Assembly (NCBI GenBank): GCA_037355855.1
Contig: CM074762.1
Span: 3,162,001 to 3,226,000 of the forward strand
From: Pseudo-nitzschia pungens
Taxonomy: Eukaryota > Bacillariophyta > Bacillariophyceae > Bacillariales > Bacillariaceae
DNA: 64,000 nucleotides
Direction of reading: 5' to 3'
The notes under the pieces were generated by a model. The model had not been told where the DNA came from and ran no database searches. It worked only from the letters and a program-made list of their open reading frames with translations. The position numbers and the translations under genes are program-made. The number at the start of each line of letters is the position of its first letter. Positions within the stretch are counted from its first letter, which is position 1. Shown one piece after another: positions 6,736 to 46,331 of the stretch.

Positions 6736-8621
6736 ATGAAAATTTCAAACAGCAACAAGATTCCAGCAGCCGCTCTGGCGTTATTGCCAGCAGCAACTGC
6801 GTTTGTGATGCCAAACACCGGGCGAATGACCAATGTGCCGGTTCTATCATCGGGATCTTTGATTTCTCCAACATCCCTGATTGCCTCCACTTTGGAGAAC
6901 CCAACCATAGCTGTGGGTGAGGACTCACGGGATTCGCTTGTCGGGGAGGCAAAGCCCCGAACCTCTTTGGATGTTCGTATACATGGGGAGTGGTACGATC
7001 TCACAGGTAGGTGACAACCATTGCCACGAGATAGAAACATCATACAGAGAGGAAGATCCCATGCATTTAAAGACATCGGGAAAGGTTGCATTCCGGTTGA
7101 CAGAGATAAGGTCATGAAGTACTTTCATTTTTGTTCATTGCCGTCAGCCGGTAAACAAACTCTATGGATGGCAATTCTATGTCTGCGTTGAACTCTCCAC
7201 TCAACAATTTGCACAGCAATTTAACGTCGCTAACCTTCTTTTTGTAAACTGCATCTCCTTTTCCGTCACAATAGGCTGGAGAAAGGCCCACCCAGCTGGA
7301 GAACACTGGATCGACTGGTATGATGGTCGAGACGCGACGGAGGTAATGGATGGTTTTCACTCTGATAAAGGTCGTATGATGGTTCAGCGATTGCCAAAGA
7401 GTAAACCAGAGGATTCGCGACGTTTTGGAAGCCAATGCAGTGCCGGACAGTGACACTCAGATTGCCTTCCGCAAGCTTCGCGACGAGCTTGAAAGAGATG
7501 GCTGGTGGAAGCGCAATCCCGTGCACGAATACAAATTGTTGGGCATTTGGGGTTCGCTTGTGGCGGTTGGTGCGATTGTCGCCAGAACAAATCCCATTGT
7601 GTCGACTGTGCTGCTCGCCCTGTCAATGACGGCCGCTGGTTGGCTCGGACATGACTACATTCATGGAGTGGATCCCTTTGCGAATAAGCTGCGAAACTTC
7701 GCTGCGCTGGCAGCTGGTTTGCTTCCAGTTTGGTGGTCTGATAAGCACAACAAACACCACGCACTAAGTGAGTACACGCAGACGATTTCTGAGTCGATAG
7801 ATAATGTCCTGAATTGCGAAAAAATTGTAACAGCAGACGAACATTGTTATTGGTGCTTCTAACACATGTTGTTAATTATCATAGCGAACGAGCAGGGAGT
7901 TGACGAGGACATCGCCACTGATCCATTCTTGTTTCAATGGGCACCTTCTCCCGAAAATGACCACCCGCTCCGAAAGATCCAACACCTGATCTTTTATATT
8001 CCCTTCAGTTTTTTGTTTGCTCTATGGAGAGTTGACTCCGTGAAAGTGGCAATTTCCAGTGTGAGACAGAAACGTCCCGGATCTAAGCCTGGGCTTTACT
8101 CGCTAATCTTTCACTACGCCTGGTTGTGGACTCTTTTCCCAGTAAACGTGTGGTTGCCTGCCATCTTCATGTCCGGTTTGCTCAGCGCCTTGATTGTCAC
8201 CCCTACGCACCAATCGGAAGAAATGTTCTCCGAATATCAACCTGACTGGGTGACAGCCCAATTCCAATCCACTCGTAACGCCGTGGCCACAAACCCCTTT
8301 TCGGAATGGCTTTGGGGAGGCATGCAATATCAACTCGAGCATCACTTGTTCCCATCCATGCCACGCATGAATTACCCCAAGCTTCGCCCGATTTTGCAAA
8401 AGTTTGCCAAAGAAAACAATGTGCCCGGTGGATACCGTGAGTCGGGAGAGTTTGAGATTCTCAAAATGAACTGGGATTTGTATCGACGAGTTGCGAAAGC
8501 TGATCCTGTCCCCGGAGCCCCATCGTCCAGAGGAAAGATCGGTCAGCAGGGAGGCATTCTTGATTCAGCAAATAGCCCTGCTGCAGCTTTGGCGCGATCT
8601 TCTCAGACTGCGTCTCCTTAA
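6736..8621 (+). CDS. plastid-type front-end fatty acid desaturase (cytochrome b5-like N-terminus)
   Basis: Membrane desaturase that places a cis double bond between an existing bond and the carboxyl end of a fatty acyl chain (delta-5/delta-6 class). Exons are 6736-7006, 7275-7767 and 7885-8621; both introns are GT-AG. The leader ALALLPAATAFVMP has a signal peptide and an A/F cleavage site, the pattern for diatom plastid import. A degenerate cytochrome b5 domain follows, with HPAGEHW where HPGG is usual. The three histidine boxes are HDYIHG, HNKHH and QLEHH; the Gln in the third is the hallmark of front-end enzymes. The frame breaks once in exon 2 by one extra base around 7405-7425, between QRLPKSKPE and VLEANAVPDSDTQ. 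Substrate and exact regioselectivity cannot be read from sequence. The C-terminal tail is low-complexity and Ala/Ser-rich. Confidence 0.85.
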
Positions 8622-26281: not shown

Positions 26282-26377
26282 TGTTGAATTCAGTAGGTTT
26301 TACTACGAAACCTTAAAGAGTAAAATTAACTCTGTTGGTTAGATACAACTAATTAAAATATGCGTACTCATGGTATT
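26282..26377 (-). repeat. 3' LTR, distal fragment (96 bp)
   Basis: Identical to 46005-46100. It stops at GGTATT, where the Helentron begins. Confidence 0.95.
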
Positions 26378-26384
26378 GGGCCTT

Positions 26385-26405
26385 AGAGGGGGCTAGTGGA
26401 GTTGT
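26385..26405. repeat. Helentron 3'-end inverted repeats (AGAGGGGGC plus TAGTGGAGTTGT)
   Basis: Two inverted words adjacent to each other near the 3' terminus; their partners at the 5' end are about 69 bp apart (40132-40140 and 40209-40220), so the two ends are not mirror images. Confidence 0.8.
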
Positions 26406-26469
26406 TGTTATGGTTTGAGTACGTAGATAAGTGTAAAGGTAGATTTTTAAATAATGTCTTATGGTATGT

Positions 26470-26582
26470 TATTAGGTCGATGTTGTATTTAGGGGAAAAA
26501 AAAAAGTACGGTTTTGAACAATTTTAGTATTAGGTCGACGTTGTATGTAGTAAAAAAAAAGTACGGTTTTGAACAATTTTAG
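26470..26582. repeat. tandem duplication near the Helentron 3' end
   Basis: Two units of about 55-58 bp (26470-26527 and 26528-26582), each starting TATTAGGTCGA and ending GTACGGTTTTGAACAATTTT. They differ by a few substitutions and by the length of an A tract. They lie just downstream of the Rep-helicase stop codon. Confidence 0.85.
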
Positions 26583-26656
26583 TATTCGTAGTGTTTTGGT
26601 GAACAATAATAGTCGTACTCGAGTACTCGGGAAGTGGTTTTGATGTGAAAGTACTA

Positions 26657-29600
26657 TTAATTTACTGTAGTAGTCCTTGTTGGATCTGAAATGAATGACA
26701 TAATCTTGTCAAGTAAGAACTGAGGAGGTTTCTTATGTGTTCTGAAATATGAATAGAACTTTCTGATTTCAGTTGAAATTTCCTTGCATCTGTGTATTTG
26801 CAACGGGGTCAATAAGTATAATCCTTGTAATGTTCTGCATCGAGAGAGGACGACATATATCCAATTCTCCATGGTGTAGTTCCACGTTGATATAATTAGG
26901 TGGTCAATTGATCTACCTTGCAGCTTGTGAACTGTTCTTGCGTGAGAGACGTTGAGACGAAATTGTTGCAGTTTGACTAAAAGTCCATTTCTTGGTGTTT
27001 TATGTGTGATTTTTTCTGCAAATAGAGATGGAAATTTGCATTTAGTGTAGATAGGTTTGTCAGATAGTTCCAAGGAGTATGAAGGAGGATTGTCACATCT
27101 GTCGTCATCTGTATTAATAATTTCAACAGATTGTACATATTTTGCCTCGATGCAGCGTACATAGTATCCATCAATAATTATAGTCTCCACCACCTCTGTA
27201 TTTGAATTGTTGTCTTTAAGTGTGATACCTTTGAATCTTGACATTGTTCCATTAGCTATGCATTCTTCGACGTTGATATTGTCTGTGACCATCACTGGAC
27301 AGTCCACATAGAGTTTAAGTAAAGGGTCGATATGTGAACTGCTACTTTGCTCTGTAACATGAGCGTCACTACAGGCAGCAAAGAAAACATCACCTTTGTC
27401 TGGAAATGGTTTGTATTCTTTTTTGGCAGAGCTGTATTTGTACTCAACATTTGATGCTCGGATGCAAATTGTATGGTTTGGAATTGGTACAGATGGGTCT
27501 TTTGAGTGTGTCTTGGCAAGATGTTTTGCAAAAATGGCATCATTTATTGCACATCTATCTTTATTTTCTGCAACTGCATATGCTGTATTCTCTGGTAAAA
27601 ATTCGTCTTCTTCCACAACCCTTGAGTTTATTATTGTTTCATCCTGGTGAGTTTGGCTCCCTTCAGCGAATCTAGATAACATGTTTCCAAATGATTTATC
27701 TTTGTCAAATCTATGATTTGTTTTGAGTTCAATCATAGTGTCCACAGCTTCGCCAAAATATTCAGAATGAACATTTTTGTATATTTTATTTCCTCCAATT
27801 GGAGGTAACTGGTTGAAGTCGCCAGCAAATAAGATGTCAAGTCCTCCAAACTTGGATTCGGCTCTGGGGACATCCTTTAATTCATTGAGACAGAAGTTTA
27901 GTTTGGTCATAAGTTCTGTACTTGCAAATGAAATTTCATCAATTATGATCATCTCTGTGTCAATCCAATCATCTTGAAATTGTTGTAACTTGTCATAACT
28001 TCTATTGTTGTTGTGGACTGGTATGTGACATGCTTTGTGAAGGGTTGATCCATGAATAGAAACAGCTGCACAACCTGTCAAAGCAGTTACCACAATTGTG
28101 TTTCTTGTAAATTTGAGGTTCAAATTGTCACAAAAACCCTTACAATAAGCCAATATCCCTTTTATGACTCTGCTTTTTCCTGTTCCTCCAGATCCAGTCA
28201 ATAATAAAATTGTCTGTTTCTTATGTCGATTGATTTGGTTTAAATCTCTTTGCAAAGCATTGTAGAGTGTGCGCTGATGTCTTGTTACTTGGCCATAATT
28301 TGTATCATCCATATCATCATTGAAGTTTCTTGTGTGACTATCTGTATCTGCATTTGCTTGTTCTCTCCTGCATATGCGCAAGACAAATCCTGAAACAACA
28401 TATGCAAATGCAGCCATTTGATGAATATCACCTTTAAAAATGTTTTCAGCGAATTCCATTATGTTTTCACAGGTTCCTGTAGGTGATGAACCTGTGAGTT
28501 CACTGTCTGTTACAACATCTCTCTTTTTAATCATGACTTGTATCATGTCACGAATGTGAATGGTATTCCAATTTCGCTGGGCATGAGTAGGATTGTCTTG
28601 TGGTGTAGTTTCAATGGTTTGAACATGTTGTGAGGTATGAAAAGCTGATACATTTTGAGGAACAATGGGTGCTGCAATAAGTTTGTCTCCACAATTGTTT
28701 GCTCCAGCTTTGACAATGACAGAAGTTTTCATTGAAAACTTATTGGTTTCTGTTCTCAATGAATTAGATTGATTGAGACCTAAGGATGTAGCGTCAAAAA
28801 TATCCAACTCCTCTATGTTTCCAATTCCATCATCATGAGTTTCCTCAGACATAAAATCTTCAGTCAAAAAAGCAGCATGGGGACCAATGGTTGTCCTTTC
28901 AAGCATATCAAGTTGTCTTTCACACTGTAGACTGTTATGTGTGTTTTGAATGTTCTGAAGTATTTTGACATGGTCTGGTTTTAAGCAGCCATTGAGCAGC
29001 CATTGTTGGTAGAATGGGAGGAATTTGTTATTGATTTTGATGTCTGATAAGTCCCTGAATGGGCAGAAAAGAGTTGCAGCTGACTGTGCATAGTCTTCCA
29101 TTTCTTTTTCAATTACTCTGTTGCATTGGTCTTCCGAACAGGGAACAAAAGTTCTTATATCATTTTTGCCAAATTTTTTAGTTGACTTGAAATTATAATA
29201 GGCAACAGTGGGAATCGCCTCATGTTTTCTCTTGTAACAAAATATGTTTTCTTTGGTAGGGTGTCCATCAATAAAGGTCAAGAAGCGTTTCCTTTTTCTT
29301 GGTTCAGATTTATAGAACTTGGTATAGTCATACAAACACATTTCACTGAGTTTGTCAGGTCTGTAAATGTAATCAGCTACATGGGACATGTATGTTGGCA
29401 ATTTTTCCTCATCTTCAGTGAGTCTTAAAATTCCCTCTTTTATGCCCTGAGTATGAAAGCGTCTCAGATAGATTGTAGCGAAATTGTCAGAAGAGAACTC
29501 AAATCTTGTAGAGTGTCTGCTGAGATAAGCAGCCATTGGAGCAGACATTATGTTGTCTTGAGTCACTTTAAACAGAGTATTCAAAATAGTTCTCAACCCT

Positions 29601-32479
29601 TTTTTCTCTCTAAGGATGTCATCTTCTTGCTGTTCTTCATTTAGATTGCCTTCAATTTGTTGGTTATTGGCTTGAGTAGTTTCATTTTCATTCAATTCTT
29701 CTTGTTTTTTGGCAATTTGGTCCAAGACTTTTTGAGCGACGCCATTGATTTTTTCTTTGTCATCCTTTTGTGTACTTTTTGAGGCATAGCATGTTAAGTA
29801 AAAAATACCTGCCCCATCAACACCCCAAATAATGTTATTGTTTGAATGAAATATTGAACTTATATATGGATTGTTGGGGTTTGCAAAACAATCCTGATGA
29901 GTTCGTTGATATTCCCATTGAAATAATTTTCTTTGTTTGTATTTCCCAAAGCAGTCATACCAAGTTGTCTCCTTGTCATCAAAATGTATTTTGTTTTCAG
30001 AAGCCTGTCGCATAGGCAGCTTAAATCTGCAATCTCCTTTTTTATCTTTTTTGAAACATGAAGGGACATGGGTTGACTTGTGCATGTTCCTGAGAAGTGA
30101 AACAATGTTCAGGGTGTCTTTGAAATCATTTGAATGAATAGCAGGTGGTCTTTGTAAAGCTGACAACGGATTTATGGTTTGTGATAACAATTTGTTATAC
30201 AAAGCCATTTCCAAAACAATCTGACACTTTGCTCGTTTTGTTATCCCATTTGAGAACTTGTGATACATGAAAAAGGTTGCAGAGTCTCTGGTGTATGGAA
30301 TTGAGTTTAGTAATGAACAATTTGATCTTGCAATGTCTTCACTGGAGTAAGTTTGTTGACACTCTTTGCATTTGATGATTGCAAGCCCACCTAAAGAGGT
30401 TGTACCATTTTTTCTTCTCAAATTTCTTAAATCTTGGTCTGAGCATTTCTCCATGGTTTGACTTAACAGTTCATTGCAATTTTCACCTCTGCATCGCGTG
30501 GTATCAAAATCTTGGTGTAATTTTGTGGTCAAAATGTTCTCAGCATATCTTTTCATTGAGTTGATAGCCTGTTGTTTTTTCTCTGGAATGTACAGGTCTT
30601 CTAGTAATTGATTCCACTTCTTAACCCACAAAACAAAGTGTGCATGCAATGTTCCTCTACCTTGCTCTTCAATTGCAATTGAATATGCATCAAGATCGCC
30701 AAACAGTCCCATTTTTGGGTTATTTCCTTTGTTTTTTCCTGTTTTGTTCCATCCCAACAAATATTGAATGGTAATATCGATTACATTTTCAAATTCTAAT
30801 GCACAAAGTCCAGGGAATGATGTACGTCGAATGTTGGACTCCAATGCAAATTGAAAAAGATCTTCATCTGGGGAGAAAAGATTTGGAACCTCGTTTCCTG
30901 GATGGAAATTTGTGCGACTTGACATTACTTGTATCCTGAAATTGATGGAATCATCAGGCGTTATAGTAAATAAAATGCATGGCATTCCATGGATTGCCAT
31001 TAGTTGAAACATTCGTTGTCTAGCTGCTTCTGACGCTCCTCTAGTGTTTCCAAGAGATCTTGTGATACCTTTGATCTTTGAAAGAAATATTTCTTCATTT
31101 GTTGTTGGTGTGGCTCCTTGGAGAAAATTTGCAGCTGCCTCTTTTAGTTTGGATGGGTTTAGGTCTCCAAAAATGCATCTCTGATTCTGAGTAGTTCTGA
31201 GATAGGAATGTTTCACCATTTTTGTCCTTTGCTGAATGTTGCAGTTGACAGATACAAAAGTAGGGACATGAAATTCGTTTGAAGATAATTCTGATAAATA
31301 CTTCAAGTATTGAGGTCCCATCATATCTTCTCCCTTCATGTTCACATTCCCTATACCATAAGGGAATTGCAAAGGGAAAGCTTTAATGAAATTAAGACCC
31401 TCATAATCTTTCAGAGAATTGCTTGACGATCTGCATATCATGGTTGAATCATTATCAATGAGGTCTTCAATGCAATGGTCTCTTAGATCTTTATCAGTAT
31501 CAAAACCTGCATTATGTTTTGATGGAGCATGTTCATCTGGAAAGACAACCATCATTTCAAATTGTTGTTCGATGTTTGAATTAGTTGATTGCACTGTGTC
31601 GCTTTTGTCAAAGAGAATGGGAGAGATTATTGCTGTGTCATTGATGTCTTCTTCCTTGAGATACCAGATATTTCTTTTCATCCAATTCAGAGCTGCCTTA
31701 GCTCTTGTTATGTTAAAATCCATCTTTTTCATAATTTTTATTTTCTGTTGTTGTGTAAATGGCCCAGAAAGCACAACTTGAATTTGTTTTTTTCCAATTT
31801 GCTCCATGTAGTTGAAAACTCCACTTGTATAGGTAAGGTTATTTTTCCTGAGAATATGATAACCTTTTATCATCTGATGCTGTCCTCCATGAAAGCAGAA
31901 CAAATGGTGGTTTAGTCTGACGTCTGAAATAAGTGCTAGTTCAGTTTCTGTCAGCTCTAGTAGTTCTTTTGGAGGATACCCTTTCATCAGACCATTAGCA
32001 ATTGCATATGTAGGAGGATGAGACATGAGTTCATCATTTTTCTGCATTTTTTTCATTCCATTAAAGCATTCAGAGCAACATCCAAAATATTTCACAGATG
32101 ATCCAGTTGGTCCAGTTTTTACAGCATATGTTCGTGGAGATAGAATGAAATTGTCCATACTGTATCTTTCTTCCTTAATTCTTCTTCTGTTTGGGACACA
32201 TTTTTGTCTGTATTGGCTGAGGACGTGCTTTCGAACACGTTCTGATACAAATTTTACAGGAGCGTTGTCCCAGTCAATCATAGTCTTGTCAAAATGTCTT
32301 CTCACATATGGATGGACGAGCCAATCAATTTCAAATTTTTTTTCATCATTATGTCGTATAAACCTATCACAAACACAGCACACTTTTGCTGAAATAATCC
32401 CTTGGTTACAGGCAAGTAGACTATTTCTTGCCTTGAATGCTTTTTTGTATGCTTCAATGATGTTGTCAACTTCAATCAT
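26657..32479 (-). CDS. Helitron Rep-helicase transposase (RepHel)
   Basis: Transposase of rolling-circle transposons: an HUH endonuclease nicks and joins single strands, and a PIF1-type helicase unwinds them. The 1,940-residue ORF has no intron. The N-terminal 250 residues hold Cys pairs (CCVC, CCSEC) and PPTYAIANGLMKG with LTETELALIS, the domain usually found at the start of Helitron proteins. The HUH motif is GRGTLHAHFVLW (about residue 608) and the two-tyrosine motif is YLTCYASK (about 895). The helicase has Walker A LTGSGGTGKS (about 1430), Walker B MIIIDEIS (about 1511), and the C-terminal HARTVHKLQGRSIDHLIIS. All catalytic residues I can identify are present and the ORF is uninterrupted, so it may be active. 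The reading frame stays open for several codons upstream of the ATG at 32479, so an extra 5' exon is possible. No OTU or apurinic endonuclease domain was seen, unlike many animal Helentrons. Confidence 0.95.
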   Translation of the reverse strand: MIEVDNIIEAYKKAFKARNSLLACNQGIISAKVCCVCDRFIRHNDEKKFEIDWLVHPYVRRHFDKTMIDWDNAPVKFVSERVRKHVLSQYRQKCVPNRRRIKEERYSMDNFILSPRTYAVKTGPTGSSVKYFGCCSECFNGMKKMQKNDELMSHPPTYAIANGLMKGYPPKELLELTETELALISDVRLNHHLFCFHGGQHQMIKGYHILRKNNLTYTSGVFNYMEQIGKKQIQVVLSGPFTQQQKIKIMKKMDFNITRAKAALNWMKRNIWYLKEEDINDTAIISPILFDKSDTVQSTNSNIEQQFEMMVVFPDEHAPSKHNAGFDTDKDLRDHCIEDLIDNDSTMICRSSSNSLKDYEGLNFIKAFPLQFPYGIGNVNMKGEDMMGPQYLKYLSELSSNEFHVPTFVSVNCNIQQRTKMVKHSYLRTTQNQRCIFGDLNPSKLKEAAANFLQGATPTTNEEIFLSKIKGITRSLGNTRGASEAARQRMFQLMAIHGMPCILFTITPDDSINFRIQVMSSRTNFHPGNEVPNLFSPDEDLFQFALESNIRRTSFPGLCALEFENVIDITIQYLLGWNKTGKNKGNNPKMGLFGDLDAYSIAIEEQGRGTLHAHFVLWVKKWNQLLEDLYIPEKKQQAINSMKRYAENILTTKLHQDFDTTRCRGENCNELLSQTMEKCSDQDLRNLRRKNGTTSLGGLAIIKCKECQQTYSSEDIARSNCSLLNSIPYTRDSATFFMYHKFSNGITKRAKCQIVLEMALYNKLLSQTINPLSALQRPPAIHSNDFKDTLNIVSLLRNMHKSTHVPSCFKKDKKGDCRFKLPMRQASENKIHFDDKETTWYDCFGKYKQRKLFQWEYQRTHQDCFANPNNPYISSIFHSNNNIIWGVDGAGIFYLTCYASKSTQKDDKEKINGVAQKVLDQIAKKQEELNENETTQANNQQIEGNLNEEQQEDDILREKKGLRTILNTLFKVTQDNIMSAPMAAYLSRHSTRFEFSSDNFATIYLRRFHTQGIKEGILRLTEDEEKLPTYMSHVADYIYRPDKLSEMCLYDYTKFYKSEPRKRKRFLTFIDGHPTKENIFCYKRKHEAIPTVAYYNFKSTKKFGKNDIRTFVPCSEDQCNRVIEKEMEDYAQSAATLFCPFRDLSDIKINNKFLPFYQQWLLNGCLKPDHVKILQNIQNTHNSLQCERQLDMLERTTIGPHAAFLTEDFMSEETHDDGIGNIEELDIFDATSLGLNQSNSLRTETNKFSMKTSVIVKAGANNCGDKLIAAPIVPQNVSAFHTSQHVQTIETTPQDNPTHAQRNWNTIHIRDMIQVMIKKRDVVTDSELTGSSPTGTCENIMEFAENIFKGDIHQMAAFAYVVSGFVLRICRREQANADTDSHTRNFNDDMDDTNYGQVTRHQRTLYNALQRDLNQINRHKKQTILLLTGSGGTGKSRVIKGILAYCKGFCDNLNLKFTRNTIVVTALTGCAAVSIHGSTLHKACHIPVHNNNRSYDKLQQFQDDWIDTEMIIIDEISFASTELMTKLNFCLNELKDVPRAESKFGGLDILFAGDFNQLPPIGGNKIYKNVHSEYFGEAVDTMIELKTNHRFDKDKSFGNMLSRFAEGSQTHQDETIINSRVVEEDEFLPENTAYAVAENKDRCAINDAIFAKHLAKTHSKDPSVPIPNHTICIRASNVEYKYSSAKKEYKPFPDKGDVFFAACSDAHVTEQSSSSHIDPLLKLYVDCPVMVTDNINVEECIANGTMSRFKGITLKDNNSNTEVVETIIIDGYYVRCIEAKYVQSVEIINTDDDRCDNPPSYSLELSDKPIYTKCKFPSLFAEKITHKTPRNGLLVKLQQFRLNVSHARTVHKLQGRSIDHLIISTWNYTMENWIYVVLSRCRTLQGLYLLTPLQIHRCKEISTEIRKFYSYFRTHKKPPQFLLDKIMSFISDPTRTTTVN

Positions 32480-33164
32480 GTTTGCTTCTGATCTAAGTCC
32501 TTCAATTCAAGGTACAATTGCAGAAAAAAAAAGAAAATCAGAAAATTTCTTTCGCGATACAATGTTCTGTGAACGAACACAATTCCAAAAGTGTTTCGAC
32601 TCCGAACAATTTTTATTATAGCCCGTAGTCTTGTGTGGCTTTCTTTTCGTTAAACACGAAGTCGATTTGAATTGAACAATTTCACTTGGACGAGAACTCT
32701 CAGTGTTATCAAATTTGTTCATTTTTGCACAATTTTATTAACACGCAACTCTTAGTGATATCGAAATTATTCATTTTTGCACAATTTTATTAACACGCAA
32801 CCCTCACTCATATTCAACAATTTTGACAATAACCCTGTTGTGCCCATAATACCGTAGTTCCAATTAATTGCGTAACAAAGTGATCGTAGATCACGCTAAT
32901 TAAACAAAAAAGTAGTTCTTCTCTTGATTAAAACATGTATGCGATCGCAATAAAGGTTGAACTTGTTAAGTGCAGGAACTCACCAATATTAATTCGGGTT
33001 CTCTTTTCGTTAAATCGTTTTCTTATTTTTATGACACTTTTCTACTGACAATTATTTTTGGATTGAAGTAAGAGATCGCTGTTCTGCATGAAAATTCGAA
33101 TGAGTCAGTCTGAATATTAGACAAAACATTGCCTTAAGTCATCAACGGTCGCATTGGAACTTAT
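32480..33164. promoter_or_regulatory. RepHel upstream region with two motif copies in tandem
   Basis: Two copies of a roughly 52-bp unit (about 32717-32768 and 32769-32820), each holding the rc of AATTGTGCAAAAATGAAY, precede the transposase. In the sense strand the 3'-most copy starts a 71-codon ORF (ATG at 32722). I infer a promoter or 5' leader; no TATA box is certain. Confidence 0.5.
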
Positions 33165-33908
33165 TTAAGCTTGGTAATTGAGTCCTTCAGGGTATCCAAC
33201 GAACTTAATGGCGTAGAAGCTGAACTTTCCGTCCAAATGACGAGTGTAGATGTCGTCAAGTTTAGTTTTGGTGATGATTTGATACTTCGCTTCGGGAGTT
33301 TCAGCGTCTTCTGGGATATGATAGTTAGTCAAGATGTGATCCACGGATTCATCCAAAAAAATCTTGTCCAAGGCAGAAAAAGGAGCAATCCCTGCAGGTT
33401 CACGGCAATGGCTTGGCTGAAATGGGGCAAACGTGGATTCTGCATTTTTTTGTTGTTCCTTGCAGAAAATCTCGACAAGAAGATCACGAAACTCCTTCTT
33501 TACGTTCATGTCAATGTCTGGATATTTCTCGGAGTTGGGATAACTGACGAAAGCGATGCGTCCATACTTGCTGTTTGGATTGTTCTTGATGATGACATCT
33601 TGCTCATGAGACTTGCGAAGGAGAAGCGGGGATTTGCATTTGATATCAAAGAATTCTTCTCCAATCTTCGGATACTTAGCAACGTCGCCAACAGTAATGG
33701 CGTCCAAAATCGGCTTCGAAAATCCACCATATCCATTGGATTGCAACATTACACCAATCAGAAACCTTCCATCCTCTCCTGCTTGAAAGATTTCGATGAC
33801 GTTTTTAGAGTTTCTTTCTGGTCGTACCACCGGGGTTCTCTTAACTTTCGCTCGTCTTGGAGAAGCCTTGACTTGAGGAGAACTGTTTTTGGAGTTAACT
33901 GGCGCCAT
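33165..33908 (-). CDS. hypothetical protein of the Helentron (247 aa)
   Basis: Family not recognised. The start MAPVNSKNSS at 33908 has a good context (ACCATGG); an upstream in-frame codon is only TTG. The first 35 residues are basic (PRRAKVKRTPVVRPERNSK) and could bind nucleic acid or direct nuclear import. The rest looks globular and soluble, with IEIFQAGEDGRFLIGVM, VGDVAKYPKIGEEFFDIK and a C-terminal DGKFSFYAIKFVGYPEG; no Cys clusters, no membrane segment. The position directly upstream of RepHel, on the same strand, suggests it is a co-mobilised element gene. A single-strand-binding role, known for some plant Helitron proteins, is a guess only. Confidence 0.75.
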   Translation of the reverse strand: MAPVNSKNSSPQVKASPRRAKVKRTPVVRPERNSKNVIEIFQAGEDGRFLIGVMLQSNGYGGFSKPILDAITVGDVAKYPKIGEEFFDIKCKSPLLLRKSHEQDVIIKNNPNSKYGRIAFVSYPNSEKYPDIDMNVKKEFRDLLVEIFCKEQQKNAESTFAPFQPSHCREPAGIAPFSALDKIFLDESVDHILTNYHIPEDAETPEAKYQIITKTKLDDIYTRHLDGKFSFYAIKFVGYPEGLNYQA

Positions 33909-34576
33909 GGTTAAATTTGGAGATGAAAATGAACACAATTTGAAACAAAAAAATTATTGTTCAAAACGGGCAAGTACTCGTATTGTAATTAATGAGACTT
34001 GACTGAATACCGTTAATTCGTTGAACACCGTAAACACACACGTTGTTTTACCTTATACATCACATAATTTCCGAGTGGTCGGTAAAAAACTACATTCAAT
34101 TGTCGTAGAAAACCTATTCGCAATTGTCGTACACGATGTTACAACCACAAATTTGTTTCAATTACGTACGTGGAAAATGATGTGCAAACACAGGAACTTC
34201 GTCGATAAATGAACCCATGGCTAGAAATTCACAATTCGAATGTCACGTTCTATTTTTTTTTTTCACGTAATACTGATTGGATAAAATGTAATGATGTCAT
34301 ATCAAGGTGTGATGATTACCTTTGTAGTTGTATCAGAACCACTCGTTTCCAATTCTACTTACTGTTGGAGCATCCAGGAACAATTTTGTGAGAACCACTC
34401 GTTTGTATCTTTTGTGACCAGAATGAAAAATGCTATAAACGTCGTCGTCACAGTATGATTATATGTGGGACATCTACATTATCATGTTTCGATTATTAGG
34501 GTGAACTGTCACGACCAATCAATATAATTTTTCTTTTTCAAATTGACGTCAACATTTTCATAATTATTGTCTCTAC
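33909..34576. other. AT-rich spacer inside the Helentron
   Basis: Between the 247-residue and 642-residue genes. No ORF with coding character and no clear copy of the AATTGTGCAAAAATGAAC motif were seen; it must contain the promoter of the downstream minus-strand gene. Confidence 0.5.
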
Positions 34577-36505
34577 TTATGCGTCACTTCGTCGAAGACG
34601 AAATAATTGTTTATTGTTTGCTAATTCCATCAACTTTTTAAATTTTGGGGTTCCACCCAACAGATTGTTTATTTGTGTGAACTCTTGAATAGTGTTCTCG
34701 ACGCCCGGTATGTTTGCAAATGTGCCACTTGCAGTTTCTTGATATGCTTTACCAGACACTGTGTACATGAAATAAATCAAACTAAGCATATAGATCTTGT
34801 CATCTTCATGACAGAGATCATGCCAAACATTTTTTGCAATATCAATAACTCTTGACAAAGCAGTTTCTTGGGTATCAGAATCATATTCGCCGATTTCATC
34901 TCTCTTATTCATCGTCCAGAATAGAAGAATTCTGAGACTGTTATTTGTTGTTCCTGACCCAGCATGACAAATTCCTCCATTCAGTTTTAGAAAAGAGAAT
35001 GTAGGTGCGTTCAGCAAGCGAATGGTGTTGTAATCAAATTCATTGGTTTCAAACTTCCCTGTTTTCAAGTTGTATGAATGTCTCTGCTTTACTTCATGAA
35101 TCATTCTGAACAACTGCCCATATTCAGGTTTGAATGATGTTTTCCCTGAGTCCAATTGTTTTAGCCTCGAAAAGAATTCATCTGGGGGCTGTGCCCACGA
35201 CATCTCTGGATAGGATAACATCCCATCTCTAATCAAATCAATAGCTTTGTCATAGCAAACTTCATTTTCCATTTCTTTCTGAGGAAGGTAAACTTTAGTG
35301 GTAGCTTGTCCTGGCGATAACATCATACCGAATTGCTTTTGATTTGAACCAAGAATGTCAAGATGAACTGTTTGGCATGTGTCTTGAGTAGTAATGATTA
35401 AACTTGGCGTTGCAAAATTCCAGTTTTCCACATCGTTTGAATTCAGTGCAACCTCTTTTGTAATTTTTTGAACAAAGTCCAATAATTCGCTCATTTCTGC
35501 TGGTGTAATTGATGTTTCTCTTGTGAAAGCTTTCCATGTTTTATCTGATTTCATTTCCTTTTTGTCGAAGCTCATTTTCAATTCATATCGATAGCTCTGA
35601 ATTGTCATTGCATTTGAATTGTTGGAAACTGATTTTTTCTCTATCCACGTCTTGAGATTTTCCCAATTGCATATGATTTTGGATTGCAGATTTTCGACAA
35701 ATTGAAGCGGTTTTTGAAACAACTCAGTATTTTCTTGATTTGGAACATAGAAGACACATTGTTCATTGCTTCCCAAGTCCAATTTAGAGAATCCACTGTG
35801 ACCAGATGACTTAAATTTTGTTTCGCCGAAATTTGTGCACTGCAGCTGCCACCTGTTTGTGAATCCTTCTTCCAACACAACATTGTGACTTTTTCCATTA
35901 TTTTGAAAGCTTGTAAGCTTCTTCTCTGGAGATTTGTCATATTCTTTTTGACATTTTTCCATATGTGGACAATGCTTGAGATGGGTTGTCATCTTATTGT
36001 AACATGCTCGGTGTCCACAAATGCAAAGCAAAGAAGCATGATTCAAGTTCATTTTCAAATGAAGAGTCTTCTTTCTAACCGAATATTCTGGAATTGTAAA
36101 TGGATCTGACTCGTTTTCAATTGTTTCACAATTACCAGTATGCCTGAATGCAGCCCTGAGATTCGTGAAAACTTGTTCGCATGGGCAAAGATATTTCATC
36201 ATGTTTGACGAAATAACATAAGGAAAGTAACGTGTTTCGCAAGTCCCTGTTGAGTTGTAGACGTTGTGTGCGTAAAAATAGGCTCCTCTTGCGTTCATCA
36301 TATCCAATACTTTGTTCTTATCTAACTTGTCGAAAACAAGATTGTAAGCAGTGGCTCCAGTTGCTTTTGGAGGCCTCTTTTTTTTTGGCTCGGGCTCGTC
36401 TGACGATTGGTTGCCATTGTCTTCTGATATTTGCAGCGATCTCTTTTTAGATGTGTTGTTCTCTGGCGAGGCAATTAATGGGGAGGTTCTATCTGATTTT
36501 GTCAT
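34577..36505 (-). CDS. putative zinc-binding protein of the Helentron (642 aa)
   Basis: Family not recognised. The N-terminus is hydrophilic with a nuclear-localisation-like stretch (EPEPKKKRPPK). Cys/His clusters then suggest two zinc-binding units: CPCEQVFTNLRAAFRHTGNC (about residues 107-126) and CICGHRACYNKMTTHLKHCP with a following MEKC (about 160-185). The remaining 450 residues contain no motif I know; a segment with FGETKFKSSGHSGFSKLDLG and a later LNGGICHAGSGTTNNSLRIL might be part of a globular domain. It is a single exon, intact, on the same strand as RepHel. A DNA-binding accessory protein for transposition or a transcription regulator would fit the Cys/His units and the location, but this is inference. 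Confidence 0.8.
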   Translation of the reverse strand: MTKSDRTSPLIASPENNTSKKRSLQISEDNGNQSSDEPEPKKKRPPKATGATAYNLVFDKLDKNKVLDMMNARGAYFYAHNVYNSTGTCETRYFPYVISSNMMKYLCPCEQVFTNLRAAFRHTGNCETIENESDPFTIPEYSVRKKTLHLKMNLNHASLLCICGHRACYNKMTTHLKHCPHMEKCQKEYDKSPEKKLTSFQNNGKSHNVVLEEGFTNRWQLQCTNFGETKFKSSGHSGFSKLDLGSNEQCVFYVPNQENTELFQKPLQFVENLQSKIICNWENLKTWIEKKSVSNNSNAMTIQSYRYELKMSFDKKEMKSDKTWKAFTRETSITPAEMSELLDFVQKITKEVALNSNDVENWNFATPSLIITTQDTCQTVHLDILGSNQKQFGMMLSPGQATTKVYLPQKEMENEVCYDKAIDLIRDGMLSYPEMSWAQPPDEFFSRLKQLDSGKTSFKPEYGQLFRMIHEVKQRHSYNLKTGKFETNEFDYNTIRLLNAPTFSFLKLNGGICHAGSGTTNNSLRILLFWTMNKRDEIGEYDSDTQETALSRVIDIAKNVWHDLCHEDDKIYMLSLIYFMYTVSGKAYQETASGTFANIPGVENTIQEFTQINNLLGGTPKFKKLMELANNKQLFRLRRSDA

Positions 36506-37288
36506 GGTGTGATATGATTTATTTTGGTTTGACGATTTGCGACGAGTTTATTGATTTATGTTTGGAATAGCAATGTGTTGTCGACCACTCGTCGTCTTTC
36601 GTCTTTCGTTTGTCGTCTCGTTATGTTTTTTGTTTGCAAACTTCACACCGAAACAGATCGTCGGACACAACTAAAATTGTTCATTTTTGCACAATTCAAA
36701 TTTGCAGTAAGACTGACCGTACCTCTCCCGTGGTCATTTTTATTCACAGTACTAGGTTTACCGTTCGTCTACTATGATCAGAAAAAGTTCATTTTTGCAC
36801 AATTTTTAAATACAGTGACATCTAACTGTTTCGCGGATGCTGATATAGGTAAATACATTTAACGTGTTCTTGGCGTACCTCTGGTGACGTCAAGTGACAT
36901 CAGTTTTATTTTCAGTTATATTTTTTGAAAGTACGTTATTTCTACTCGAATCAGAAAATGTTCATTTTTGCACAATTCTAAATCATAGTAAAATGTCTCC
37001 GTACTTTTCATAGTAAAAACTCTCCGTACCTTTCCTTTTGTTATTTCAACGACAATAACACATACGTACCTCTTTTGTGGTTGCATGGTATGTACCATAA
37101 CCTTTGAATTCACGAAATACATTTATATATCGGTGGTTTGTTAAACGTTCTTTGTTATGAAAGCGATAGTATAAGTAAAAAATTGTTCACGATTTAACAA
37201 TTAAAACATAATTTACTATTTCCTTTTTTATTTAATTAATCTCTGTGTCGTGATCCCACCGGAGTCCGGAAATGACAATCACAATTTC
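36506..37288. promoter_or_regulatory. upstream region of the zinc-binding gene with three motif copies
   Basis: Copies of the motif (plus strand GTTCATTTTTGCACAATT) at about 36679-36696, 36788-36805 and 36960-36977. In the minus-strand sense each contains an ATG in the context CAAAAATGAAC, opening mini-ORFs of 4 codons (two copies) to 13 codons. Spacing is irregular (about 109 and 172 bp). This looks like a shared cis-element; a role as transcription initiator, upstream ORF or Rep-binding site is open. Confidence 0.55.
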
Positions 37289-39182
37289 TTAATTCTCTTC
37301 CGAACCTTTCGATTTCTTAAGGAACTCATTTAAGGGTTTTGCCCTTGAACCCATTACCTTGACATCCAGATCTTCTTCTTTCTCAATGATCTCATATTTC
37401 TCAGAGTTAGTTTTCAAATCAGATAAAATCAACGACAACACATTTTTATCTTGTTTCGAAGCAATTATCAATCGTTGTGGAAAATTTCGAATTGGATTGA
37501 AGCTGTCGCCTTTGCGCTCGGGAAATTCATTGACAGGGTTAAATACAACTCCAAAACAATGTGTTCTTGGAGTGTTCACATTTGCGAATTCATTTTTGTA
37601 TCTGCAAGTTGATTGATAACAAAACATGCGGTGTCCCATTTGATACAAAGCGGCACGATGTGCGTCATCATGGTATGATTCCAAAGAATGTGCACGTTCA
37701 GCCTTTCTGCGATGTCCTTGTTGTGCTTTAGATGCTTCTGCCTTTTTGGACCGATTACGCTTTTTTTTGAAACTTTTGATAAACTTGATAAAACTTTGAT
37801 CCTGTAGTTTCAACTGACCTTTTTGATAATAAGTAGAATCATCGAAATACAGTCGGCAGCGTTCGAAGAGCCTTAATTCTCGATTGGACACTTTATCATT
37901 ACCAGGTGGTGCAATGACTTTTGTCTTCTTAACGGATGGTTTCAAAGTCCTATACTGTCGACAGAAATGTTCAAGAATGAAAACCAATTTTGCTAGGTCT
38001 TTCCTAATCATAATCACATCATCTGGTGCGCGGTAATGATCAATTTCCAAATCTCCGGCTTTGACATAGGCGTAGGAGAAACTTGGGACGTTCTTTCGTT
38101 CAGACATGACGGCAAATCGATTGAGAAGACATTCATAACCACAAGACCAACCATTCTCTTGGAAAGGCACTATGACAAAAAAGAAAGAACAATTAAGAAT
38201 AATTAAAAAAAAAAGAATGCAAAATCTTCGAAAAAGACAACTTACCAGGAACCGAGACCAGAGGAAGGCTTTTCTGGTTGCATTTATTTTTGTCAAAGAA
38301 TCCTTTGGCTCTTCCATACTTGTTTAAGAATGAACGTAGTATTCTCGCCACGTTAACTCCCCGGTGATAACTTGCGTTCGAGTACAGTTGTTCACCTTTG
38401 GAATTCATAAACAACATAAAGGGAAAATGTACATCATCTTCTTTGAACTCCTTTGTACCAACTTTGCCGACGTTAAACAACAAAACCTGAGAAAAATGAT
38501 CTTTTTCATAAACGGTGATATCAATGACCTTGAAATCGAATAGATTTTTCCCAAGTTTTTCGAAGGGTCGCAAAGAATTGAGATATGAATCTGTTTCTCC
38601 TCCTATCTTAAAGTCACCTCTCGTCAGCGAAGAAAAAAAACATGATGGAAGACTCAACCACTCATGATATGTATCGATAAATGTCCACGAAGAGGCAAGG
38701 TCCAGAATAGGTGAAGTTATCCAAGCACTGCATTCATTTCGAGTCGAAGTTCCAGATGAAACCAGGGAAGTAAGAGCATCAAAATCTGATTCCAATACGG
38801 TACTTCCTTTGAAACAGAAACTAAAATCATTAAGTTCGATTCCGTGGCGGTAGAATTTCAGTGCATCATGCTCAAAGAAATCGTCAATGATCTTGACAAA
38901 GTCGACGTTCATGAAATGTGATATGGTCTCGTGTGAAAAAGATTCAAAGACTGCGTCGCTTTTCGTAAAAGTTATGTCATACAGTGGGGCCTCTTTCTTC
39001 TTTGAATTGTCATTCTTTGAGTTGTCGTCCTGTGTCTTTGAATTGTCATCCTGTGTCTTCTGCTTACGCCGAGTGGAATCGGGTCGGTTACAACTTTTGT
39101 ATTGATTTGCAGCTTTCGCTCGACTGTAATAAGTTCTTGTTGGCAAAGAACCGCTTTTGTTAGACATTTTTGACGTTCCCAT
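37289..39182 (-). CDS. Ulp1-like (C48) cysteine protease of the Helentron, spliced
   Basis: Cysteine protease of the Ulp1/SENP fold, a family that removes ubiquitin-like modifiers and is carried by several eukaryotic DNA transposons. Exon 1 is 39182-38246 (ATG in TCATCATGGGA context), the intron 38245-38170 (GTAAGT...CATAG, 76 bp, T-rich), exon 2 38169-37289; product 605 residues. The splice restores VSVPVPFQENGWSCGYECLL, which has the family's Gln and catalytic Cys (QENGWSCGYE). The likely catalytic His is in KDHFSQVLLFNV and the third residue in FMLFMNSKG, where Asn stands for the usual Asp. N-terminal 70 residues are Ser/Lys/Asp-rich and contain a short DDNSKTQ repeat. The end of exon 2 has strongly basic patches (KSFKKKRNRSKKAEAS), probably nuclear targeting. 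Same strand as the other element genes. Confidence 0.78.
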
Positions 39183-40223
39183 GATGAGAAATTGAACATT
39201 TCATCAATTTGATGAAGATTGATCGAAAATTATGGCACAACATATAGAACCACAGAAGACAAAACAAAACAAAACATCAAAAAGCACGGGAAGACAAAAG
39301 AAAACATCAGAACACCTTTGTCTTCAAACCACTTACTTCCAACTGAAAACATCGACGATTGACGACAAATTAGAAAGACTAACAGAAATGAAAACAGAAT
39401 CGCAAACGACAACCGACAGAAACGGATCAAACAAAACGACAGCAAAATAAAGTTTATTGTGGTTTACCGAAATATTCTTACGCGGAAGTACGGAGTAGAA
39501 GACAAACTAGGCAGATTCTTGAATTGTCAAGATAAAATTATTTAAGTCGGCAGAAGCTTCCTTTATTATTATTCAAAACTGAGCAATTGTCAGTACGTAT
39601 AATTATTAATTATTTAATTATGAATGCTAATTATTAATTATGTACATATGACTAAACCGATACGTTTAAATCAAATTATTCAAAAATGAACAACTTTAGG
39701 ATCATGCCGGACGAGTACGAGTACGGTACGGTTTATGGTTTTAATTAAAATAGTAAATTATTCAAAAATGAACAATTTTTCGATCATACCATTCGTACCA
39801 ATAAATACATGGTGAGAATAAATTTTTAATTAATAATATTCATCAATCCATTCGTACCAAAATATATAACGGTATATAACTAAGTAAATCAAAAGAGACG
39901 AATTATATTTTATATTACTAACTGTAGATATGAAAACTTAGTGAACAACAATTTCTAACGAATTTAAATCCAATCAAAATACTTGTAGAACGTTATAATA
40001 AAATATTGCCCACCAATAGAAAACCGAATAATTGTTTATTACAAAAGTAGAATTCTTGTCCACAGTTTTAGCTGTTAAATTCCTACCAGGCCCACGACAA
40101 AATAATTCTTTTGACAAGTTTTTAACAGAAGGCCCCCTCTCAAACTCTCCCAACTCTCCGAGTAAGAGTTACGTTGCAAATTCCAATATGGTTACGGTTA
40201 ACAAATTTACAACTCCACTAATT
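39183..40223. promoter_or_regulatory. 5' terminal region of the Helentron with inverted motif copies
   Basis: No coding ORF. Very AT-rich. Copies of AATTATTCAAAAATGAAC-like sequence on the plus strand at about 39674-39693 and 39756-39780 (and a weaker one near 39575) are inverted relative to the copies at 32.7 and 36.7-37.0 kb and share the downstream word GATCATRCC/GATCATA. The segment ends with the 12-bp terminal inverted repeat at 40209-40220. Confidence 0.6.
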
Positions 40224-40454
40224 AGTCCTGTGAACCAATGGCACCCTGGTTGGATTCACTTCAACCACGTGTGTTGATTTCACTGAAGAATATCATTCCA
40301 GAATATCAACACAACACGTATGTTCTGTGAGCCATCGGTATCCCACTGCCACCACGCTCTTCAACCACATGCTAGTTGTGGTCGTATCAACTGGTCATAC
40401 CATGTGTACCCTCTCACATGTAATCGCGCATTGCTACTTGGCATATTCCCAACA
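40224..40454 (-). repeat. 3' LTR, proximal fragment (231 bp)
   Basis: Identical to 46101-46331. It resumes at AGTCCTG after the Helentron and ends CCCAACA, next to the gag-pol 3' side. Confidence 0.95.
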
Positions 40455-40498
40455 CACTCCTGCTGTATTAGGGGACACAGTCGCGTACATATAGTAAC

Positions 40499-43400
40499 TT
40501 ATGCCTTTTCCTTGCGCATGGCGTACTGCCTTTGGTATTCGTTGAATTCCAGTTCGGTAACACCCATAATGGTGTTGCGGAATTTTCTGAACAAAGCCCC
40601 CTGTAATGGCTTTGTAAAATAGTCGGCCAACATGTCCCCGGTGGGACAGTATTGGATTGTTATCTCTCCTTGTTTGACACGATCCGTAATCAGGAAGTAT
40701 CTGATGTTAATATGTCTAGTTCTTTTGGTGCTTGAGGACTTTCCATTCATTTCCAGCTTCATGGCACTGGTGTTGTCTTGATGTAGAATGTTCTCCTTTC
40801 CAAAGTATGCTGCTCCCATATCGTCGGCGGGGTCTATACTCTTCTCCGGCTGTGACAAATACCCCTGCCACTCGAGGTAATAGTAGCACCAAAGGTTGTA
40901 GGGTAAGGTATCATCGACGCCCACCAGTTCGGCCTCGGTCGAGCTCTTCGTGTTTAGCTTCTGCTTAGTTGATACTGCCAGAACAGCTCCTTGACCAAAC
41001 GTGAGCACACCACCGGTGTGGCTCTTCATGTCGGAGTGTACTGCAAACGACGCGTCCACATACCAGTGTGCATTTCCGGACTCGTCCCACCCCAGCACAA
41101 GTGGGAGGAACACTGTGTCTCGCACGTAGGCGAGCACTCTTCGTAGTTTCTTCCAGTCATCTTGATCAGGATGGGCTACTCGTGTACAAAGGAATGCGAT
41201 TGCTGTCTGTATGTCGGGACGCGCTCTCTTGCTTGCAAACAGGAGCTGTGCAACGTGTTTGTGGAACAACTCGGCGTCAACCCGATTCAGTTTGTTGTCC
41301 CCGGTCGTATTCACCTTGAACAGGTGATCAGATGCTGGCGTTGGAATGATCCTGGACTCCCTCAGTGACTCCGGTAATTCGCTAATGATCCCTTCGAGGT
41401 AATCAAACATGCTGAACTTGACCTTGCCTTTCTCACTGTAGTCTATTGTCATCCCGACGTAATCATGTACTTGTCCTCGTGTGACTGTAAGTGGTGACTC
41501 AATGCCAAACACCCTGTTCAGATCATCAAGTATCCCCGTGACAACGTCTGGATCCTTGTGTGAGATCTTCAGGTCATCGACATGCCACACGATTGTACAT
41601 TGTGACCCATTGATCATCTTGTTGGCGGTGCAGGTATCGTACGGGTTCAGCTCAAACCCCCAGTCAATTAGTTGACCGGAGAGACGCTCCCAAAACAGCA
41701 ATGCTGCCCGCAGTGTACCGTAGATCGCCCGGTCAGCTTGGGTGTAGAGTGTCTTGTGTCCTTTTCGGTTGAGCACGAATTTCTGGTACGTGGTGGGGTC
41801 AATTTTCGCTAACAGCTCTGCCATTGGCCCGTCAAACCTGATGTGCACCACCTCCCCTTCTGGCATTGGGGTTTGGAGGAAGGCGCCAGGAATATCTGCG
41901 GTGGCCACGTCCCGGCCCTCGATTGCATCAATCAGACAGGTCAGCATGAGCCCATGCAAGGAAACTGTGGGTGAGTATGTGTCTTCTCTCGAAATAAAAT
42001 CTCGCTGGGACCTACCATCTGCACATCCTCGTGCCTTGATCTTTCCACAGCGTTTCCTCTTTAGGAACATCAGATATGGTAGTGCTCGTTTGATTTCCTC
42101 TCTGGTCATTTGCCTAATGTCCACAGGGTGGACCACCTTTCGGTCATGCAGTTGCTTCAACTCAGTGAGCACGGCGTCCACTCCTGCTGTCCCAAACAGC
42201 TTCAGGCCTGCTTTGATCCCATACTGTCGCGTCACCAACGATGCGTCAATATTATTGTAAGAAGCTATTGCGTTGGAGATGAACACGTATTGGTTGTGGT
42301 CGCTCTCAAGCTTGTGGACGGCATGAGCGAAACCTCCACTGAACACGTTGCTGTGAGTGTGGGCAAGTGCCCGCTGGTGTATGCTGCCTTCATAGCCTTC
42401 GTTTGGTCCGAACTTGTTGTGTCCCCTGGTTACCCGGGGACGTAGTCGTGAGCTCACTGGCTCTGCAGTGGGGTCCTCCCGTGTATCAGCGCTGTTTGCG
42501 GCACTGTTGTTGTCGCTGTCGTCCTCGCCTAAATTGTCCACGATTTCGTCGTCCGGCGCGTCAAGCGGCTCGTCGGGCTCGCTGTTAACAGACGCCCCAT
42601 CGGCATTGGTGCTCGCCTGGCTTCCTTCGCTATGGACGCTTCCGGCGTCTGTCGGCTCAACGGACCCGTTGTGCGTCTCTGTGTGGTTGGATGACTCGGC
42701 GCTGCTCGCGGACCTCTCGTCTGAGCTAATTCGACGTGGATCCATACTGGCCTCGTCGTTGTTGTTGCCATTATCATTGTTTCCGTTGTTATCTACGTTG
42801 ATTTCCTCCACAATGGCACTCGCCACTGATGCGGCGTCCGCATCGGCCTGTAAGTCATGCAGCTCGTCTGGTTCTAGCGCCTCAGTAATGTCACTGTCGA
42901 CTGTGGCGTTGTCATCGGGGACAAAAGAGCGGTCTGACGCGTCGTCATCGCTGCCCACGGTGTCGGTTTCGAGGTCAAATATTGTCGTGTGTCCCTCGCT
43001 GTTCCCGAATGTCAGCCCTATTGGTGCATTCTGGTCGGTTGCGATCTGATCCACTCGTGATATCACGGCGTTAGTCATATGTGCGAGAGTTGCAGTGCGC
43101 CGCCGGATGCGTCGTCCGGTCTGTAGGTCAAATAGGTACATTGCCCCGCTCCGGTCACCGGTCGGCCGGAGGTATATTGTGTCTCGAGCGCGAGGGTTCA
43201 TTGTATTGTCGCTGGAGTCCTCGTGTGCGAGCACATAGTCCCCGAACTGAAACTTACAATGCTTGCTGGCATCGATTCTTACGCCGGTCATTAGGTGCCT
43301 GGGTGATATGGTCTTAGAAACCCCCACTCTATTGCACCAATTGTTTAGCCAGAATATCCCGGCTGACACCATGTCGATGGTCATTCGGCGGGGAAGTCGT

Positions 43401-45841: not shown

Positions 45842-45987
45842 TGTTTTTGGTGGTACTGGAGGATTTATTATCAACTGCTACAGTACTGTGTGTCCGGAGG
45901 ATGTTTCAGTGGTATCGACTCGACGTGCACGTTGGAAACACTATGGTGGTTTCTGAAAGAGACAGGAGATCACTGTGTCGATTACCG

Positions 45988-46004
45988 TATTTTAATTAGT
46001 TGTA
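45988..46004 (-). promoter_or_regulatory. primer-binding position, complementary to the element's own LTR
   Basis: In element sense this is TACAACTAATTAAAATA, directly after the 5' LTR, where a primer-binding site must lie. It does not look like the usual initiator-tRNA match. It is the exact reverse complement, over 17 nt, of the LTR segment at 46067-46083 read in the same sense. Confidence 0.65.
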
Positions 46005-46331
46005 TGTTGAATTCAGTAGGTTTTACTACGAAACCTTAAAGAGTAAAATTAACTCTGTTGGTTAGATACAACTAATTAAAATATGCGTACTCATGGTATT
46101 AGTCCTGTGAACCAATGGCACCCTGGTTGGATTCACTTCAACCACGTGTGTTGATTTCACTGAAGAATATCATTCCAGAATATCAACACAACACGTATGT
46201 TCTGTGAGCCATCGGTATCCCACTGCCACCACGCTCTTCAACCACATGCTAGTTGTGGTCGTATCAACTGGTCATACCATGTGTACCCTCTCACATGTAA
46301 TCGCGCATTGCTACTTGGCATATTCCCAACA
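46005..46331 (-). repeat. 5' LTR of the copia element (327 bp, intact)
   Basis: Plus strand TGTTGAATTC to TTCCCAACA. It serves as the empty-site control for the split 3' LTR. Confidence 0.96.

Follow-up and report, generated by a model that had tools for sequence, protein, structure and literature searches.

Extra genes in Helitrons, a superfamily of rolling-circle transposons, are often regarded as accidental passengers. Autonomous animal Helitrons are typically one-gene elements in the account of PMC4067079, which also describes proto-Helentron-Pi of Phytophthora infestans, an element that begins with TT and inserts between A and T. As reported in parts of the literature, Helentrons with OTU or VTD domains are rolling-circle transposons with a cysteine protease that may act on ubiquitin (PMC4067079, PMC9741609), fungal TET/JBP Helitrons carry a dioxygenase as a presumed anti-silencing tool (PMC12730594), and Ginger1 and Mutator elements, which are cut-and-paste transposons, bear a gene of the SUMO-protease type (PMC2836005). 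Here we describe a locus of the diatom Pseudo-nitzschia pungens (assembly GCA_037355855.1; genome of 66.9 Mb in 28 contigs) lying in a window of 64,000 nucleotides, the whole stretch of DNA that was analysed, which corresponds to bases 3162001-3226000 of contig C5 (CM074762.1). A preliminary description had proposed in this window a complete autonomous Helentron with genes for a Ulp1-like protease, a Cys/His zinc-binding protein and a small basic protein beside that of the Rep-helicase (RepHel). Our analysis argues strongly for a complete, recently mobile and probably autonomous rolling-circle transposon of the proto-Helentron/Helitron2 type, whose three extra genes are very probably inherited parts of it. 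No paper on a Helentron with a Ulp1 protease was found in the open-licence PMC literature, Repbase lying outside this scope.

The element occupies positions 26376..40221 (13,846 bp) on the minus strand, with its 5′ end at 40221 and its 3′ end at 26376, limits that are given by an empty site and by identical ends in other copies. It interrupts one long terminal repeat (LTR) of a retroelement that extends from 26282 to 46331. The left part of this LTR (26282..26375, minus strand) and its remainder at 40222-40454, once joined, equal the intact LTR of the same retroelement (46005-46331) exactly over the 326 bases compared, so that 26376-40221 is one clean insertion. The element placed at 26378-40223 by the preliminary description is thereby confirmed, with both ends moved. 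The cut point is ambiguous among four equivalent positions (left flank ending at 26374 to 26377) that are indistinguishable by sequence. No target-site duplication was found at this empty site, although the shared letters AAT would give the same sequence if 2-3 bp of them had been duplicated. The 327-bp LTRs of the host retroelement, still identical to each other, start with TGTTG and end with CAACA, and AAAAT is present at both outer sides; the host remainder covers 40222..46331 (minus strand), and the long open reading frame (ORF) between the LTRs (40499-45841) appears to be of Ty1/copia type, a call made from the sequence and not from a domain search.

A search of the genome with RepHel gave 25 matches, grouped into 13 loci, of which eight hold a gene of near full length (match counts in the genome searches are lower bounds). 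These eight genes form family A (the window and copies on C8 and C6), family B (three copies on C1 and one on C12) and family C (one copy on C1), and RepHel of the other families is 55-57% identical to that of the window. Every one of the eight adjoins a finger gene, both exons of a protease-like gene and a small gene. Gene order is equal in families A and C, and family B is a separate 13.57-kb element with the same gene set, in which the protease-like gene has moved to the opposite end and is read from the other strand. Three copies of family B have both ends in common and no flank in common, in a comparison whose alignment is interrupted by some 220 repeat-rich bases and which, for two of the copies, leaves out about 4 kb. 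Six of the near-full copies (three of family B together with the window, C8 and C6) showed both termini, and for the C12 and family C copies the 5′ end alone was seen. The extra genes seem to be integral to the element and not passengers, since they stand beside all eight near-full RepHel genes and the protease-like gene is kept even where it has been moved and inverted. Furthermore, all 10 matches to PF14214 in the genome fall within these RepHel loci, and hence no plain Helitron was found in it. The proposal of a complete element with four genes was borne out in this genome, the ends being proved and the gene set recurring in the eight near-full copies; the element appears to be autonomous. 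Neither copies lacking the extra genes nor another transposon inserted within the element, which the preliminary description had named as observations that would speak against it, was encountered among the near-full copies.

The sense strand of the element reads TTAGTGGAGTTG...CAACTCCACTA-GCCCCCTCTAAGGCCCAA. The 5′ terminus TTAGTGGAGTTG (40210..40221, minus strand), which includes the inverted repeat TAGTGGAGTTG, was supported by the 10 family A and B ends tabulated and by the C12 and family C copies, with the old copy at C1:6.79 Mb deviating from TTAGTGGAGTTG at the last bases. Terminal comparison of the copies located the other arm of this 11-bp repeat, CAACTCCACTA (26394..26404, minus strand), 18 bases inside the 3′ end, where it is followed by the tail GCCCCCTCTAAGGCCCAA (26376..26393, minus strand) and then by the target T. 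Asymmetric terminal inverted repeats of this kind, with TAGTGGAGTTG at the 5′ end and the complementary arm set back by 18 bases from the 3′ end, are a Helitron2 feature. The base preceding the element is A in nine of the ten tabulated 5′ flanks and G in one, and the base following it is T in 13 of 13 tabulated 3′ flanks, in a table whose rows were chosen by the end strings and which covers part of the listed places. A strong 3′ hairpin was sought and not found; for the hairpins or palindromes that Helitron2 elements have at both ends, stem z was -1.53 at the 5′ end, -0.80 at the 3′ end and -0.18 at the 3′ end of family B.

The element seems to have been mobile recently. The C8 copy, which has different flanks, matches the window at 8,556 of 8,556 bases, with 3,487 bases of that copy not compared as DNA; a further alignment of 1,813 columns, reaching 8 bases beyond the element end, contains no mismatch and two gap columns, and the two RepHel proteins are 100% identical. 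The C6 copy is 98-99% identical to the window. Between two family B copies (dS 1.31), the finger gene had a ratio of non-synonymous to synonymous substitution rates (dN/dS) of 0.18, and exon 2 of the protease-like gene had one of 0.23 when the window was compared with an old copy of family A; these values, from the two pairs with enough changes, indicate purifying selection on both, as judged from sequence comparison. Between the window and the C6 copy, dN/dS was 0.27 for the finger gene, 0.22 for exon 1 of the protease-like gene, and 0.31 and 0.04 for two RepHel pieces. In one family B pair the small gene gave 0.42, and two distant pairs were saturated. Values contrary to such selection were obtained between the window and C6 for exon 2 of the protease-like gene (2.1, with 1 synonymous and 8 replacement changes) and for the small gene (0.63), as well as in two close family B pairs (0.33 and 0.75 on 7 and 4 changes); the ratios of these close pairs carry no weight because the changes are too few.

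RepHel (26657..32479, minus strand) encodes 1940 amino acids (aa) that comprise DUF6570, an HUH/Y2 Rep and a PIF1 helicase, as indicated by the ORF and by Pfam matches to DUF6570, PF14214 (Helitron_like_N, 8.5e-12) and PF05970 (PIF1, 1.3e-24). The catalytic residues are intact, including the HUH motif (LHAH), the YxxxY motif (YLTCY) and Walker A and B, in an alignment to 14 of 26 database relatives, and the fusion of an HUH/Y2 Rep to a PIF1 helicase places the element in the Helitron superfamily. Those 26 relatives were found among 5.8 billion proteins, and only two of them are named, both from the diatom Nitzschia inconspicua. The designation as a Helentron, on the other hand, had to be abandoned. 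A Pfam search of RepHel at E up to 10 detected no C-terminal endonuclease, and the motif that ends the helicase lies at 1846-1883 of the 1940 aa; the features of Helentrons sensu stricto, namely the apurinic/apyrimidinic (AP) endonuclease, the insertion into TT (A|T here) and the S in Rep motif 2, were not found; and this motif, IEEQGRGTLHAH, has a T where S is published for Helentrons and L for Helitrons. Canonical Helitrons (Helitron1) have 5′ TC and 3′ CTRR termini, and these do not correspond to the 5′ TTAG and the 3′ GGCCCAA or GCGCCAA of the present element.

The lack of a detected C-terminal endonuclease and the A|T insertion make the element resemble proto-Helentron-Pi and not the Helentrons sensu stricto. 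As far as the account in PMC4067079 goes, the likeness extends to the size of about 14 kb, the 5′ TT, the A|T insertion without duplication, an endonuclease-less RepHel and the presence of several extra ORFs. That account assigns to proto-Helentron-Pi a SET-domain gene and two hypothetical ORFs, not compared with the present ones, and no protease or finger gene; it also gives CTAG as the 3′ end, whereas 18 bases follow CTA here, and the Helentron Rep signature, in place of which the present element has T for S (PMC4067079). The element is closest in structure to a proto-Helentron, though without the published Rep signature. With the Helitron2/FoHeli elements, as presented in PMC5148889, it shares asymmetric terminal inverted repeats, the lack of an endonuclease and non-autonomous partners, and it differs from them in having four genes instead of one and another target preference. 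Compared with the published features of OTU/VTD Helentrons, no AP endonuclease was found here, the candidate protease has a gene of its own with a predicted intron and is of another motif type, and insertion is at A|T and not TT (PMC4067079, PMC9741609).

The protease-like gene consists of two overlapping ORFs in different frames, which a predicted intron of 76 nt (38170..38245; GTAAGT...CATAG) would join into a protein of 605 aa, with exon 1 at 38246..39182 and exon 2 at 37289..38169, all on the minus strand. In each of three further copies for which the gene was modelled, two from family B and one from family C, GT-AG splice sites can be placed at the corresponding position, and alternatives to them exist. 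All four genes are on the minus strand and open, in agreement with the preliminary description, which had also called them intact; the protease-like gene requires splicing. An alignment of five sequences, in which the others are 27-39% identical to that of the window, contains 34 invariant columns, among them a His and an Asn in exon 1, which are candidate catalytic residues, and a Gln-x5-Cys-Gly motif in exon 2, which also holds a conserved C-terminal domain; H, N, Q and C are present in 5/5, with Asn as the acid. The catalytic order of the CE clan (Peptidase C48) is H...D/N...Q-x5-C-G. In shuffles of the invariant residues, the H-N-Q-C order arose in 4.5e-5 of trials with the following Gly and in 0.008 without it, frequencies to be read in the knowledge that this motif, like the HxD motif treated below, was chosen after the data had been seen. 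From the conserved motif, the protein is likely to be a CE-clan cysteine protease. This assignment is weakened by the lack of support for it in Pfam and PDB, and by the fact that PF02902 matched 21 other places in the genome and neither this gene nor its intronless relative. The label of Ulp1-like protease therefore retains its conserved H-N-Q-C motif and is left without backing from the Pfam, PDB and PF02902 searches. Ginger1 proteases, in contrast, are reported to match pfam02902 (PMC2836005). A match of exon 2 to FAM32A (0.0097, below the cut-off) was set aside.

An intronless ORF of 931 aa, present at both C2:7.10 Mb and C7:4.54 Mb (L020, L021, L040, L041), encodes a relative of the protease-like protein. 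Over the 4.8 kb compared, the main alignments of these loci show >99.5% identity, and no RepHel match is listed on either contig, so that the protease can live apart from RepHel. PF02902 matches lie also in repeated long ORFs (e.g., C5:5027330, C6:3323115, C8:2938677; C2:5058244, C3:5533643), with lengths of 1078 aa (three places), 1157-1242 aa (five) and about 2770-2806 aa (several), which are probably other transposons.

The finger protein (642 aa; 34577..36505, minus strand) contains two Cys/His fingers, C-x-C-x12-H-x3-C (36128..36187) and C-x-C-x11-H-x3-C (35969..36025), both on the minus strand and invariant in the five aligned copies, two of which are near-identical family B sequences. 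The fingers agree with the zinc-binding protein of the preliminary description, and the protein may be more than a zinc binder, as H380-x-D382 ... H513-x10-R524 (numbering from the second codon; 34931..35365, minus strand) is likewise invariant in 5/5 and forms a candidate 2-oxoglutarate- and Fe(II)-dependent (2OG-Fe(II)) oxygenase site. The known site of these enzymes is HxD/E...H...R, and its shuffle frequency in the finger protein was 0.0044 for a motif chosen post hoc. On these motifs, the finger protein has almost an even chance of being a DNA-targeted 2OG-Fe(II) oxygenase. Against such an activity, no oxygenase family was matched in Pfam or NCBIfam at E up to 10, nor any in PDB; a single-sequence structure model reached a mean pLDDT of 32.5, too low to be used. 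In comparison with the fungal TET/JBP Helitrons as presented in PMC12730594, the oxygenase here is predicted from a motif, with no oxygenase family matched, and is fused to two fingers. Weak matches to ULD_2 (one of five finger proteins; best 0.0011, below its cut-off), Spore_III_AB (three of five; best 0.0082, below cut-off) and NCBIfam Mbov_0729_Cterm (two of five; best 0.00074) were set aside.

The small basic protein (247 aa; 33165..33908, minus strand), to which no fold was assigned, is more conserved (52-61% identity) than the other accessory proteins and had no match in family and protein searches; our guess, by analogy, is that it may coat DNA, the role of RPA in plant Helitrons. For the accessory proteins together, no trusted family was found in Pfam, PHROGs or NCBIfam, a weak match to a PHROG integrase (0.039) being set aside, and the viral contigs gave nothing with any of the three alignments.

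Analysis of the spacers between the genes revealed an 18-bp palindrome, TTGTTCA-N4-TGAACAA. Allowing up to 2 mismatches, it occurs 8 times in 3,456 spacer bases and is absent both from 10,314 coding bases and from the remaining 50,154 bases of the window; in 500 shuffles of the spacers the mean count was 0.066 and the highest did not exceed 2. The eight copies start at 32715, 32767, 36677, 36958, 37183, 39569, 39676 and 39758. Two of them lie upstream of RepHel (32715..32784), three between the protease-like and finger genes (36677..37200, with a weaker one at 36785) and three upstream of the protease-like gene (39569..39775); they thus precede RepHel and the finger and protease-like genes, and not the small gene. 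Their placement suggests that the palindrome is probably an operator through which a protein of the element controls several of its promoters. When 3 mismatches are allowed, however, the window holds 18 copies against 6.87 expected, some of them coding and two outside the element. The eight copies are not independent because some lie in local duplications. Elsewhere, one perfect copy was found in locus L080, none in the family B copy B1 and four, all with 3 mismatches, in the family C stretch.

The extra genes might be host or foreign passengers that one element captured and that are useless to it. Gene capture by Helitrons is on record (PMC4289320, as far as that account extends), and the finger and small proteins are without relatives elsewhere: neither had one at E <= 0.001 among 5.8 billion proteins, a result that, given the word and length limits of the search, is weak evidence of true absence; elements of this kind are represented in the database, since RepHel finds its 26 relatives there. 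This absence also tells against inherited genes, as do several further observations. In three of the five broken RepHel loci, one or more of the extra genes gave no detected match, namely C8:2.7 Mb (protease-like and small genes, no listed finger gene), C5:4.33 Mb (the end of RepHel adjoining a protease piece) and C9:2.67 Mb (110 aa, none of the extra genes), and those at C1:6.7 Mb and C9:3.7 Mb keep pieces of all three; moreover, one family B RepHel has a TAA stop, and exon 2 of the family C protease-like gene has an in-frame TAG. Passengers, however, would not be expected beside all near-full RepHel genes of three families, and their retention through the rearrangement of family B is hard to explain in that way; a further argument against them is that, in the two informative pairs, the finger gene and protease exon 2 are under purifying selection, and we consider this explanation very unlikely. 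Even less probable, to the point of being hardly tenable, is that a plain Helitron was hit by a second transposon to which the extra genes belong. The intronless protease relative on C2 and C7, contigs without a listed RepHel match, would fit such an origin, but families A and C have one gene order, the 5′ ends are common across families, the block is bounded by no inverted repeat, nor by a direct repeat beyond short spacer units, and the empty site corresponds to a single clean insertion of the whole element.

With the extra genes taken as inherited parts, the remaining alternative concerns their function and is compatible with that origin: the accessory proteins may have plain DNA-processing or structural jobs, such as a protease that cleaves RepHel or a DNA-binding coat. 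No homology stands behind the enzyme functions, and RepHel cleavage was raised as a possibility for Helentron OTU proteases in PMC4067079; the invariance of catalytic-type motifs in both proteins points the other way, and we regard these plain jobs as a serious prospect that falls somewhat short of even. RepHel alone can explain the movement of the element, in which it would nick the 5′ end, one strand would be peeled off and transferred, the host would copy the displaced strand, and RepHel would insert at AA|T, as expected from its family. Our preferred, though tentative, reading is that the accessory proteins could act against silencing by the host or shield the transposition complex. Both themes have precedents among transposons of this class, as deubiquitinase Helentrons (PMC9741609) and dioxygenase fungal Helitrons (PMC12730594) exist according to these accounts; the suggestion of the preliminary description that the element may edit ubiquitin or SUMO marks would not be new in kind, since Helitrons with OTU and VTD deubiquitinase domains are in print (PMC9741609). 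The host genome has six DNA_methylase-family matches and therefore a possible substrate system. A more specific version, which we think unlikely as a whole, would be an anti-silencing kit of separate genes, made up of a SUMO/ubiquitin-type protease, a finger-guided 2OG-Fe(II) oxygenase erasing DNA or histone methylation, a third, new protein and an element-encoded regulator acting at the TTGTTCA-N4-TGAACAA operator. If the motifs are true, the element would represent a protease-plus-dioxygenase counter-defence with an origin separate from the animal deubiquitinase Helentrons and the fungal TET/JBP Helitrons. The role of the three extra genes in rolling-circle transposition is testable, because they are kept across three families, even with one moved and inverted, and the elements are near-identical, open and precisely delimited.

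Locus L080 (259-7161) is a gene-free partner of 6.9 kb with the same ends and no ATG ORF longer than 91 aa; its tandem arrays are long, with units of 369 and about 145 bp, and tandem repeats are also mentioned for some Helentron partners (PMC4067079). Further pairs of ends 7-8 kb apart were found, two on C1 and one on C8. The G+C content of the element is 36.4%, against 49.4% in the flanking stretches of the window, and the G+C content at third codon positions (GC3) is 0.32-0.47 in its genes, compared with 0.46-0.65 in four neighbouring ORFs.

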